Shown here piece after piece: positions 57,439 through 61,155 of a stretch of DNA of 64,000 nt (position 1 is its first letter; every line of letters begins with the position of its first letter). Origin of the DNA: Terriglobia bacterium (GTDB lineage Bacteria; Acidobacteriota; Terriglobia; Acidiferrales; UBA7541). Position numbers and translations under genes: made by a program. The notes under the pieces were generated by a model that worked only from the letters and a program-made list of their open reading frames with translations, was not told where the DNA came from and did not search any database. Location: positions 1,240,001-1,304,000 of the forward strand of contig JAIQGG010000002.1 of NCBI GenBank assembly GCA_020072785.1, written 5' to 3'.

Positions 57439-58080
57439 ATGGCTCGCGAAACCGAAATCAAGCTGCGCATTCCTGACCGCAAGATCTTCCTGCGTGCCCT
57501 GCGCAAACTCGGCGCTCGTGCCGCACGAGGCAGCGCCCCCGTCCGCGTCCACGAATTCAACGTCATCTTCGACACTCCCGACGGCGGCCTCGCCAAACAC
57601 GGCCAACTCCTGCGCATTCGCACCGAAACTCCGCAGCAGGGAAGCCGTAAAAGGCGCGGCGCGCCGGCTGCCCGCGTCATCTTCACCTTCAAGAGCCCCG
57701 TCGCCGCCGTGATGGACGCCGCGGGCTCGCATAAGGTCCGCGAAGAGACGGAAGTCGAAGTGGTTAGCGCGGAGCTGCTCACCAGGATTCTGGAGGGCCT
57801 CGGCCTGCGCGGCTGGTTCCGCTACGAGAAATACCGCACCACCTATCTCCTGCCGGCAGCCCAGCGCTGGGCCCGCGGCCTCCTGATCGAGCTGGACGAG
57901 ACCCCCATCGGCACCTTTGTCGAACTCGAGGGGCCTGCCGCGGCCATCGACCGCGCCGCCGCGCTCCTGGGCTATTCCCGCCGCGACTACGTCCTCACCA
58001 ACTATCTGCAGCTCTACCTCGCCGATTGCCGCCGCCGGGGCCAGCCTCCGCGCGACATGCTCTTTGCTAAAACGCCATAA
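57439..58080 (+). CDS. CYTH-domain protein (class IV adenylate cyclase/thiamine triphosphatase superfamily)
   Basis: A 213-residue tunnel-fold protein. ATG 57439 places the diagnostic ExExK motif (ETEIK) at the extreme N-terminus, as usual in CYTH proteins; an ATG at 57415 is also in frame. Other charged strands line the tunnel: RVHEFNVIFDT, QLLRIRTE, FTFKSP, REETEVEV, YEKYRTTY, LIELDETPIGTFVELEG. Bacterial members hydrolyse triphosphates, inorganic or thiamine, or make cAMP; the present sequence does not decide. Confidence 0.88.
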   Translation: MARETEIKLRIPDRKIFLRALRKLGARAARGSAPVRVHEFNVIFDTPDGGLAKHGQLLRIRTETPQQGSRKRRGAPAARVIFTFKSPVAAVMDAAGSHKVREETEVEVVSAELLTRILEGLGLRGWFRYEKYRTTYLLPAAQRWARGLLIELDETPIGTFVELEGPAAAIDRAAALLGYSRRDYVLTNYLQLYLADCRRRGQPPRDMLFAKTP

Positions 58081-58116
58081 CCCCCTAAAAAAGTGCACTT
58101 TCCAGTCACTCTAGTC

Positions 58117-58145
58117 TTGACTTTGTTGCGCACGCAGCTTATTTC
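58117..58145 (+). promoter_or_regulatory. candidate sigma70-type promoter
   Basis: TTGACT, a 17-bp spacer and TATTTC. The -35 is one base from consensus; the -10 is poor. It would start transcription near 58152, just ahead of the structured region that ends at a strong terminator. Confidence 0.35.
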
Positions 58146-58155
58146 TAGAAGTGTT

Positions 58156-58170
58156 GACCGCTTCGCGGTC
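58156..58170. repeat. palindromic element
   Basis: Perfect GACCGCTTCGCGGTC (6-bp stem, TTC loop), the consensus form of the dispersed element, near the predicted 5' end of the candidate RNA. Confidence 0.8.
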
Positions 58171-58376
58171 ACTCATACAGAGGTGGATATTGCACAATGA
58201 GCGCACCCAGCGAATACGACCCTGCCCCTAGTAGCTTCCTTGCGGAGCGCTGCATAGTAAGGGTTCGCATGCTCAGGCCGATGGTGATTGTGGAAGGACG
58301 GCGCAAGGCCTGCCAGCTGGTCGTTCGAGGAGGGGTCGCCCGCGGCCAGAGGTAAGTTCCAGCAGCATAAGGACTT

Positions 58377-58417
58377 GCCCGCGCCGCCCTGCTGCGGTTC
58401 GCGGGCTTTTTGTTTTT
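58377..58417 (+). terminator. strong intrinsic terminator
   Basis: Stem GCCCGCG (58377-58383)/CGCGGGC (58400-58406) with an inner CCGC/GCGG pairing, followed at once by TTTTTGTTTTT. It lies about 120 bp before the PRC/MgtE_N gene and no protein gene precedes it closely on this strand except the CYTH gene 300 bp away, which argues for a separate RNA or a leader. Confidence 0.85.
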
Positions 58418-58447
58418 CGCGCCACCGGGCGCCGCGCCAGAGACCGC

Positions 58448-58518
58448 CTCGGCTTCGCGGTCGCAGAATATGTTGACCGCTCTGCCGTCGCAGAGATTGT
58501 TGACCGCTTTGCGGTCAC
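58448..58518. repeat. three tandem degenerate palindromic elements
   Basis: Three related units about 26 bp apart: CTCGGCTTCGCGGTCGCAG, TTGACCGCTCTGCCGTCGCA and TTGACCGCTTTGCGGTCACT. Only the last keeps a perfect stem (GACCGC/GCGGTC at 58502-58516). They end 20 bp before the start codon of the next gene. Confidence 0.75.
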
Positions 58519-58538
58519 TTTGATTGAGGACTCGTTTC

Positions 58539-59777
58539 ATGCTGCACGCTACCGAACTCATGGGCGCGGAAACCTACGACACGCATGGCAACTTCGTTGG
58601 CCGCGTGCGCGAGCTGTTTATTGAGCCCGCCGAGGCTCCCAACCGCGTTGCCTATTTTCTTCTTTCGCGGGGCCGCTTTCAGCCCCTCGTCGCCCGCCAC
58701 AATCAGGTGGCCTCCATCTCTCCTGGCAACCTGCGTCTCAACTGCAGCGAGCGCGCCCTGGAGCTCTACGAACCCAACGAGGCCTGGCTCGCCGTTCGCA
58801 AGGACCTGCTCGACCAGCAGATCATCGACACCAGCGGCCGCAAAGTCGTCCGCGTTAACGATGTGGACCTGGCTGAGCAGCGCGTCAACGGCAACGTCGA
58901 GCTCCGCCTCCTGCAGGTGGACGTGGGCCTGCCGGGCGCTGTCCGCCGCCTGCTCCAGGGCATCGCCTCGCCCGCTCTCATTCGCAAGCTCCAGAACAAG
59001 CTGCCCACCCGCGTCATTCTCTGGGAATTTGTCAATCTCATCGAGCCCGACCCCCTGCGCCGCGTCAAGCTGCGCATCACTCACGAAAAACTCGAGGATA
59101 TCCATCCCGCCGACCTCGCCGACATCATGGAAGACCTGTCCGCCTCCGAGCGCCAGTCCATCATTTCCTCCCTCGATGAGGAGACTGCCGCCGGCGTCCT
59201 CGCCGAGCTCGATGCCCGCCTCACCACTCAAATCGTCGAAAAGCTCGACCCCGAGAAAGCCGCCGACATTCTTGAAGAGATGGCTCCCGACGCTGCTGCC
59301 GACGTTCTCGCCGACCTGTCCCAGGAAACCTCCGACGAGCTCCTGGAAGAGATGCCCGGCCAGGAAGCCGCGGAAGTGCGCGAGCTTTTGCAGTTCGACC
59401 CTGCCACCGCCGGCGGCATGATGAACCCGGAATTTGCCTTCGTCGGCGAAAGCGCCACGCGCGACGAAGTCCTCGCCTGGATGCGCGGCCAGGACCTCAA
59501 CCTGGACCAATTGGATACCGTCGTGCTCATTGACGGCACCGCGCAGTTTTCCGGCATCGTACCCGTGGCGCGCCTGCTCCTCGCCGCATCTGGCCAGTCC
59601 ATGAAAGATCTCCGGCCGGAGCCGCTTGTCAGTGTGAAGCCCGACGCCGAGGAAAAAGAAGTTTTCGAGCTGTTCGACAAGTACAACCTGCGCATGCTCA
59701 CGGTGGTCGATGAAAACAATCTGCCCATCGGCACCATCACCGTGGACGACGTGGTCTCGCGGCTCGTCCGTGCGTAG
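58539..59777 (+). CDS. Soluble PRC-barrel/MgtE_N/CBS-domain protein, putative Mg2+ sensor
   Basis: A 412-residue protein from ATG 58539 (GAGGA eight bases upstream; a TTG at 58524 is also in frame). N-terminal PRC-barrel-like segments (about 5-70 and 90-140) are followed by an MgtE N-domain superhelix (about 185-285: HPADLADIMEDLSASE, LDPEKAADILEEMAPD, EEMPGQEAAEVRELL) and a pair of CBS motifs (about 290-412: GGMMNPEF, LVSVKPDAEE, LRMLTVVDENN). This is the cytosolic gating apparatus of the MgtE Mg2+ channel without any membrane domain. The adjacent NRAMP-type transporter starts 46 bp later, suggesting it regulates that transporter in trans. Confidence 0.88.
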   Translation: MLHATELMGAETYDTHGNFVGRVRELFIEPAEAPNRVAYFLLSRGRFQPLVARHNQVASISPGNLRLNCSERALELYEPNEAWLAVRKDLLDQQIIDTSGRKVVRVNDVDLAEQRVNGNVELRLLQVDVGLPGAVRRLLQGIASPALIRKLQNKLPTRVILWEFVNLIEPDPLRRVKLRITHEKLEDIHPADLADIMEDLSASERQSIISSLDEETAAGVLAELDARLTTQIVEKLDPEKAADILEEMAPDAAADVLADLSQETSDELLEEMPGQEAAEVRELLQFDPATAGGMMNPEFAFVGESATRDEVLAWMRGQDLNLDQLDTVVLIDGTAQFSGIVPVARLLLAASGQSMKDLRPEPLVSVKPDAEEKEVFELFDKYNLRMLTVVDENNLPIGTITVDDVVSRLVRA

Positions 59778-59823
59778 CGGCAGTTTCATGGATAGGCGAC
59801 TTTTTTAGGAAGGCCGGGGCCGG

Positions 59824-61155
59824 ATGATGGATTGGATGCAGCTTACTTCTCGGGTGCAGGCCTGGCGCGACCGCGGCGGAGAGCTGCGCAAGCGCGGCCG
59901 CAGCTGGCGCCGCCGCCTGGCCCTCTACCTGGCCGTCCTGGGACCCGGTCTGATCACCTCCAACGTGGACAACGATGCCGGCGGCATCTCCACCTACTCC
60001 CTCGCCGGCGCCCACTACGGCTACGCTCTGCTCTGGTCGCTCATTCCTATGGCCATCGCCCTCTACGTCACCGAGGAGATGTGCGCGCGCATGGCGGTGG
60101 TCACCGGCAAGGGCCTTTCCGACCTGATCCGCGAGGAGTTCGGCTTCCGCTCCACCTTCTTCATGATGGCTGGCGGCTTTTTCGTCGATCTTTTCAACGT
60201 TGTCGCCGAATTTGCCGGCGTGGCCGCGGCCATGCAGATCTTCGGTGTCAGCAAATATGTTTCCGTGCCCATCGCCGCCCTGCTCGTCTGGGTTCTCGTT
60301 GTCCGCGGCACTTACAAGCAGGTGGAAAAAATCTTTCTCATCGCCTGTACCTTCTACTTGACCTATTTCTTTTCCGCCGTTCTCGCCAAGCCCCAGTGGC
60401 TGGTGGCCGCCAAGTACGTGGCCGTTCCCAGCATCCAGTTCGATTCCGGCTACTTGCTCACGCTCACCGCGCTGGTCGGCACCACCATCGCCCCCTGGCA
60501 GTTCTTTTATCTCCAGGCCGGCTTCGTCGAAAAGCGCATCGGCCCCCGCCAGTACAAGCAGGCCCGCGCTGACGTCATCGCCGGCAGTATCACCTGCATG
60601 GTCATCGTTTTCTTCATCATCGTGTGCACCGCCGCCACCCTGTACGCTTCCGGCAACCGCAACATTACCGACGCCGCGGACGCCGCGAAGGCCCTTGTGC
60701 CCCTCGCCGGACGCTGGGCCAGCTATCTCTTTGCCTTTGGCCTGCTCAACGCCTCGCTCTTCGCCGCTTCCATCCTCCCCCTCTCCACCGCCCACGTGGT
60801 CTGCGAAGGCCTGGGCTTCGAAGCCGGCATTGATCACAAGTTTAAGGATGCCCCCATCTTCTACTGGCTCTACACCGTGCTCATCGTCGTGGGCGCGGGC
60901 TTCATCCTCCTCCCGCGGGCCCCGCTCTTTAAGATCCTCATCTTTTCGCAAGTCGGCAATGGCATCTGGCTGCCCATTGTCCTGGTCTTCATGCTCCTGC
61001 TCATCAACCGCAAGGACCTGCTGGGCGAACATACGAACAAATTCGGCGATAATCTGGTGGCCTGGACCACGGCCATCGCCATGATCATCCTTACCTTCGT
61101 CCTCCTCTACGCCACGATCTTTCATCACACAACCCTCGGAGTCGCACCTACGTAA
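59824..61155 (+). CDS. NRAMP-family divalent metal transporter, atypical binding site (possibly Mg2+)
   Basis: A 443-residue, roughly 11-helix transporter. After a basic N-terminus, helix 1 has LGPGLITSNVDNDAGG: the canonical DPGN is replaced by DAGG (Asp51 kept). In helix 6 the canonical A-x-x-MPHN becomes TTIAPWQ: the metal-coordinating Met is Ala223, His is Trp225 and Asn is Gln226. The loss of the soft Met ligand is what characterises NRAMP-related Mg2+ transporters rather than Mn/Fe carriers. Its partner gene encodes an MgtE-type Mg2+-sensing module. Start ATG 59824 follows AGGAAGG in the 46-bp gap. Confidence 0.9.
   Translation: MMDWMQLTSRVQAWRDRGGELRKRGRSWRRRLALYLAVLGPGLITSNVDNDAGGISTYSLAGAHYGYALLWSLIPMAIALYVTEEMCARMAVVTGKGLSDLIREEFGFRSTFFMMAGGFFVDLFNVVAEFAGVAAAMQIFGVSKYVSVPIAALLVWVLVVRGTYKQVEKIFLIACTFYLTYFFSAVLAKPQWLVAAKYVAVPSIQFDSGYLLTLTALVGTTIAPWQFFYLQAGFVEKRIGPRQYKQARADVIAGSITCMVIVFFIIVCTAATLYASGNRNITDAADAAKALVPLAGRWASYLFAFGLLNASLFAASILPLSTAHVVCEGLGFEAGIDHKFKDAPIFYWLYTVLIVVGAGFILLPRAPLFKILIFSQVGNGIWLPIVLVFMLLLINRKDLLGEHTNKFGDNLVAWTTAIAMIILTFVLLYATIFHHTTLGVAPT

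Follow-up and report, generated by a model that had tools for sequence, protein, structure and literature searches.

A soluble MgtE-like protein with a predicted double PRC-barrel as the regular genomic partner of NRAMP-related magnesium transporters in Acidobacteriota

Two adjacent plus-strand genes were analysed in a stretch of 64,000 nucleotides from a Terriglobia bacterium (hereafter the window; assembly GCA_020072785.1, contig JAIQGG010000002.1, positions 1,240,001 to 1,304,000). Gene 1 (58539-59777, from the ATG to the end of the stop codon; 412 amino acids) encodes a soluble MgtE-like regulatory protein composed of a predicted double PRC-barrel, an MgtE N-domain and a CBS pair, and gene 2 (59824-61155; 443 amino acids) encodes a putative NRAMP-related magnesium transporter (NRMT). 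The MgtE-like protein was supported as the regular genomic partner of the NRMT, and in NRMT genomes the pair largely takes the place of the MgtE channel. We consider it moderately probable that this soluble partner senses Mg2+ and acts in trans to restrain a Mg2+ carrier that is uncoupled; direct binding, docking through the PRC-barrels and inhibition at high Mg2+ are the parts of this proposal that we infer. The two genes add one more example to a pair already described. An earlier note on this DNA had suggested a new wiring of the MgtE regulatory domain, a claim that did not hold: the pair and a proposed feedback control are in Shin et al. 2014 (PMC4072509), and the note's hypothesis restates one in print.

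Gene pair and identity of the carrier

Gene 2 matched the Nramp family over nearly its full length (PF01566, E 2.6e-91). Its closest solved relative was EleNRMT of Eggerthella lenta (PDB 7qia; 342 bits, E 3.9e-101), followed by Deinococcus MntH chains with 100 bits at most. Helix 1 reads N-D-A-G-G, with D-A-G-G (residues 51-54, 59974-59985, plus strand) giving DxxG in place of DPGN, and helix 6 reads G-T-T-I-A-P-W-Q, with Ala for Met and Trp for His in T-T-I-A-P-W-Q (residues 220-226, 60481-60501, plus strand). The published NRMT signature consists of DxxG in helix 1 and TxxA/T in helix 6 (PMC8806188), and the Met and His of helix 6 are marks of Slc11 (PMC9606685). Gene 2 carries D-A-G-G and T-T-I-A, has lost the Slc11 Met and His, and lacks the canonical NRAMP/MntH signature (DPGN, A/CxxM). 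Because EleNRMT was the best solved relative and the DxxG-TxxA signature was present, gene 2 was called an NRMT, which, judged from its sequence, would take up Mg2+ and very likely Mn2+. EleNRMT carries both ions with no H+ coupling (PMC8806188). The other PF01566 gene of the same genome encodes a canonical NRAMP (sites MDPGNW and GATVMPHN).

The earlier note had described gene 1 as an MgtE N-domain and CBS pair without the channel, followed 46 base pairs (bp) later by an NRAMP-family gene with DAGG for DPGN and with TTIAPWQ, Ala replacing Met, and had likened this loss of the Met ligand to that of the NRMTs. These readings were confirmed by the Pfam matches, by the positions of the two genes and by the signature together with the score difference between EleNRMT and MntH.

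NRMTs about 50-60% identical to gene 2 came from Acidobacteriota and from records under the names Geobacter, Geomonas, Smithella, Pelotomaculum and Omnitrophota. The signature varied among close relatives: in some the last position of the helix 6 site was Ser, one lineage had Glu replacing the helix 1 Asp, and one relative read GATVAPWQ in helix 6.

Co-inheritance and displacement of the MgtE channel

The survey set comprised 149 Acidobacteriota genomes, 31 of which contained a close NRMT (E ≤ 1e-110). A genome survey of the pair, suggested in the earlier note, returned one relative of gene 1 (hereafter sensor), matching from the PRC-barrel to the end of the CBS pair, in each of these 31 genomes, linked or not. 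It lay within 350 bp upstream of the carrier, or overlapped it by a few bases (G062), in 15 genomes, farther upstream on the carrier's strand, at 0.7-5.6 kilobases (kb), in 8, at 199 kb in one and on another contig in 7. Among the other 118 genomes, 10 had a gene 1 relative; 8 of these 10 matched only from residue 79-81 on, and all 10 adjoined a carrier from another, second NRMT-like clade with about 35% identity to gene 2, the gene order being reversed. One 67% complete genome outside the 31 (G136) had a second-clade carrier fragment at a contig end and gave no sensor match.

Eighty named loci, selected by closeness to the window carrier, showed the same association: a sensor match was present in the examined flank of 66 (51 within 350 bp upstream, 11 at 0.37-4.3 kb upstream, 4 downstream), the sensor was elsewhere in the genome for 12 of the remaining 14, and the last 2 carriers were at contig ends. 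Since the same pair was found again in other genera and phyla, the pairing is not a matter of chance.

The MgtE channel domain was over the cut-off in 3 of the 31 NRMT genomes vs. 82 of the 118 others (Fisher p 1.2e-9). Fisher tests take genomes as independent, though they are not; redrawing one genome per family, a partial remedy, gave a median p of 1.1e-5 (6.6e-8 with the second clade counted). CorA showed no clear bias (14/31 vs. 75/118, p 0.07; per-family redraw median p 0.31), and MgtA-type ATPases over the cut-off were commoner with the pair (8/31 vs. 10/118). None of CorA, the MgtE channel and MgtA was over the cut-off in 10 of the 31 NRMT genomes, 7 of these belonging to the 15-genome class sample, nor in 8 of the 118 others, 2 of which (G029, G066) have a second-clade pair. 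The MgtE channel domain (PF01769) was absent from the gene 1 protein and from the whole window genome, in which no CorA was found either and which has one MgtA-type ATPase (894 bits). A canonical NRAMP like that of the window genome was present in 13 of the 15 sampled class members, and the class therefore seems not to need the NRMT for Mn2+.

An M-box RNA over the gathering score was detected upstream of the pair in 6 of the 14 relatives' loci tested (Geobacterales and Firmicutes records), in front of pairs whose carriers were about 55% identical to gene 2. One of the 6 was cut by a contig end, and at L133 the RNA lay about 1.2 kb before the sensor.

At L027 (244-2781) sensor and carrier shared one frame with a single TAG between them and overlapping match coordinates, the arrangement nearest to a fusion, and at L052 and L055 the two open frames were divided by a stop codon alone. 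The long open frame of L018 was considered as a fusion and rejected. At L105 (3627-4929) the sensor was in two overlapping frames, for its N- and C-terminal parts, corresponding to a frameshift or a split gene.

In the second NRMT-like clade (loci L050, L051, L052, L054, L055, L056, L059 and L060; about 31-38% identical to gene 2) the sensor gene was downstream of the carrier, not upstream. Another PF01566 group (L058, L061, L062, L063, L064, L065, L066, L067, L069 and L071) reads DDPSG in helix 1 and GT(T/S)ISPY in helix 6. No sensor gene was found in the flanks of the carriers with DDPSG-type sites (10 loci) or with NDAGAV sites (2 loci). Three more loci, L068 (IGPGTV/GTTVVPYN), L072 (FEVGSM/GSTISPYM) and L070 (NDGPSM/GATVTPWM), fit neither the NRAMP nor the NRMT signature.

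In the window, the 46 bp between the two genes (59778-59823) contained no terminator-like site. A CYTH-domain gene lies upstream of the pair, and the genes for an undecaprenyl diphosphate synthase and a CTP_transf_1 protein lie downstream. A 15-base palindrome, GACCGCTTYGCGGTC, occurs 4 times in the window (40047, 58156, 58502 and 61252; 0.03 expected), and 3 of the 4 copies flank the pair.

Domains and Mg2+ sites of the partner

All features of gene 1 given here are on the plus strand. The MgtE N-domain (residues 188-288; 59100-59402; PF03448, E 9.5e-26), present in 55 of the 55 members of alignment A2, is followed by the CBS pair (about residues 289-410; 59403-59768), the second CBS of which matched PF00571 (361-410, E 7.6e-9). 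The predicted model had a mean predicted local distance difference test (pLDDT) score of 87, and its residues 171-409 superposed on the Mg2+-bound MgtE cytosolic domain (2yvy) with Z 26.8 and a root-mean-square deviation (rmsd) of 2.3 over 238 residues.

The fold matches of the whole model were dominated by residues 222-412, and a separate model of the N-terminal half was therefore used for fold searches. Residues 1-170 were modelled with pLDDT 92 and matched 8qzo_F, a chain from a CdpB1/CdpB2 structure (archaeal PRC proteins), across the span 1-170 (Z 11.9, rmsd 3.4 over 130); residues 1-82 matched single PRC-barrels. For these two reasons the N-terminal half was read as a double PRC-barrel, a predicted feature that the earlier note missed. 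The first barrel (residues 3-47 in Pfam, about 1-80 in the model; 58545-58679; PF05239, E 1.9e-6) aligned with the PRC protein 1pm3 (VIA-align Z 8.6, rmsd 1.6 over 66), and PF05239 was detected at E 0.01 in 51 of 53 N-terminal halves. The second, PRC-like barrel (about residues 83-140; 58785-58958) was placed from the model and the 8qzo_F match; taken alone, this half gave no Pfam PRC match. In proteins of the RimM type and in CdpB proteins, PRC-barrels serve as modules for binding other proteins.

Thirteen columns were invariant in 55 aligned proteins from several phyla. Most of the invariant residues were in the second PRC-like barrel (D92, Q94, D97, R105, V106, D108 and R137; alignments A2 and A3) and in the linker after it (W162).

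The Mg2+ and ATP site positions were mapped onto Thermus thermophilus MgtE (numbering of the latter for all sites) from PMC5882242 and PMC5529423, the cytosolic Mg2+ site assignments being those of PMC5882242. By this mapping, Mg4 (D91 and D247) and Mg6 (D95) are probably kept in gene 1, as D251 and D404 and as D255 (codons of D251 and D255 in 59289-59303; codon of D404 at 59748-59750). In the sensor alignment of 90 rows, which leaves out partial sensors (start after residue 85 or end before 395, window numbering), contains the window protein twice (WINDOW and L004) and may repeat near-identical genomes, Asp was found at the position of D95 in 87 rows, of D91 in 62, of D247 in 68 and of D226 in 14, and Glu or Asp at that of E59 in 69. 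The 6 sensors behind M-boxes kept more: Glu or Asp at 59, D91, D95 and D247, with D226 in 4 of the 6. D91 and D247 were lost in 9 of the 14 tabulated sensor sequences of the f2 group. In sensors of the second NRMT-like clade the ATP pocket retains Y170, R187 and, at 227, an aromatic residue, and D91 is lost.

Proposed mechanism, alternatives and known systems

We propose that gene 1 would be a dedicated soluble NRMT partner, built from an MgtE regulatory domain and a double PRC-barrel. At high cytosolic Mg2+, ions at the N-domain/CBS sites (Mg4 and Mg6) would lock the protein in a compact, MgtE-like shape that binds and restrains the carrier; at low Mg2+ it would loosen and release it. The cytosolic domain of MgtE is reported to be compact when Mg2+ is present and loose when it is absent (PMC8104411), a change that requires D95 (PMC5882242). 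Contact with the carrier may be made through the PRC-barrel half, the plug helix being gone: only 8 residues follow D404 in gene 1, and 6-27 follow the D247 position across the family. Mg2+-dependent binding in trans through the barrel half is proposed because D95 and the Mg4 pair are kept, the plug is lost and a barrel holding the most conserved residues is gained. An uncoupled Mg2+ carrier would presumably need such a brake. The domain make-up, the site residues, the NRMT signature, the co-inheritance and the displacement of the MgtE channel were observed here; movement of Mg2+ and Mn2+ without H+ coupling is taken by analogy from relatives.

Several observations weigh against this proposal. 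The absence of the plug helix itself is one. Mg5 (D226, D250) is lost in gene 1 (N383, S407), as are the Glu of Mg7 (E59, replaced by G219) and all 5 ATP-contacting side chains checked (Y170, R187, D188, N203 and F227). No M-box was found in the window at the gathering score, none in 58000-59900 even at E values as high as 1, and none in the 149 Acidobacteriota genomes, searched with stricter Infernal filters under which weak matches are lost. Carrier and sensor genes are not close together in 8 of the 31 genomes, and no true carrier-sensor fusion without an intervening stop was found among the loci searched. The NRMT as sole Mg2+ importer of the window genome was rejected, its MgtA-type ATPase being over the cut-off. 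In Shin et al. 2014 (PMC4072509), the carrier of the Acidobacterium capsulatum pair Acp2976/Acp2977, expressed in Bacillus subtilis, gave full rescue of Mn2+ uptake and partial rescue of Mg2+ uptake, the latter was no better when the fragment was co-expressed, and Clostridium acetobutylicum carriers worked without the fragment. A brake would not be expected to improve the rescue of a Mg2+-starved strain, and the published negative would therefore be no test of one.

The A. capsulatum result is the origin of another reading, in which the pair is a manganese system with a carrier that mainly imports Mn2+ and an MgtE-like protein that responds to Mn2+; Shin et al. concluded that their carrier was likely a manganese transporter (PMC4072509). 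The stronger rescue of the Mn2+ mutant, the lack of M-boxes in Acidobacteriota and the loss of the Mg4 pair in most of the tabulated f2-group sensors agree with it. However, EleNRMT carries both ions, so that rescue by Mn2+ is not specific and does not exclude a role in Mg2+ uptake; the window genome and most class members have a separate canonical NRAMP; 7 of the 15 class members have none of CorA, the MgtE channel and MgtA; M-boxes stand upstream of pairs with carriers about 55% identical to gene 2; and the window sensor retains both Mg4 aspartates and D95. We regard the manganese reading as unlikely. The interpretation given in the earlier note is partly supported overall; the full Mn2+ rescue in A. 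capsulatum touches on the Mn2+/Fe2+ selectivity that the note had named as counting against it.

Rather unlikely, too, is that the carrier needs its partner in some capacity other than as a Mg2+-dependent brake: it might be an assembly factor, buffer or chaperone Mg2+ in the cytosol at the inner mouth, or pass Mg2+ status on to a different target. Conservation is highest in the second PRC-like barrel and linker and not at the Mg2+ sites, neither Mg5 nor the ATP pocket nor the plug helix is retained, and the fold matches are to PRC-barrels of the RimM and CdpB type, which serve in protein binding. The one published co-expression test without effect (PMC4072509) also fits this alternative. Against it, D95, on which the Mg2+ response of MgtE depends (PMC5882242), is almost always Asp in the sensor alignment, and C. 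acetobutylicum carriers that work without the fragment (PMC4072509) argue that it is not strictly needed for assembly. Decay of a former MgtE channel, with gene 1 as what is left of it and kept by linkage only, would account for the missing channel and plug helix and for the lost Mg2+ sites, but the gene is present in all 31 close-NRMT genomes, including those in which it lies far from the carrier gene, it shares 13 invariant columns with proteins from several phyla and it has gained a double PRC-barrel, which makes this very improbable.

The soluble brake acting in trans can be extended, more tentatively, to an origin: it is possible, at somewhat less than even confidence, that the regulatory domain of a channel was cut loose, given a double PRC-barrel for docking and put to new use as a separable brake, dependent on Mg2+, for a LeuT-fold carrier from a different family, the two-protein unit replacing the MgtE channel in Acidobacteriota and acting in trans even when unlinked. 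NRMTs are reported as uncoupled Mg2+/Mn2+ carriers, and a dedicated co-inherited Mg2+ sensor, if real, would explain how overload is avoided; ion-sensing domains would then be movable between unrelated transporter folds as separate subunits.

Compared with MgtE of T. thermophilus (2yvy/2zy9), gene 1 likewise has the N-domain, the CBS pair and equivalents of D91, D95 and D247; unlike it, gene 1 is without the channel, the plug helix, Mg5 and the ATP-contacting side chains, and has gained the double PRC-barrel. EleNRMT aligned with residues 30-430 of gene 2, and the two share the signature NDAGGI/GTTIAPW. The closest precedent is that of Shin et al. 2014 (PMC4072509), who defined NrmT, reported that most nrmT genes adjoin a gene for the MgtE N-terminal cytoplasmic domain, and proposed feedback regulation of the carrier or a chaperone role for this fragment. 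In open-licence PMC papers, to which the literature search was limited, no later answer on the role of the fragment, left open in 2014, was found, nor any paper treating the PRC-barrel together with MgtE and CBS. The available text of Shin et al. does not mention PRC-barrels, unlinked pairs that are inherited together, displacement of MgtE channels or the condition of each Mg2+ site. The possible split at L105 resembles the split sensor gene reported in C. acetobutylicum. The window lacks the upstream M-box found in a subset of Shin-type pairs, in which it is not a defining feature; the C. acetobutylicum Ca_c0685 operon and A. capsulatum Acp2976/Acp2977 have the same two genes as the window, in the same order.

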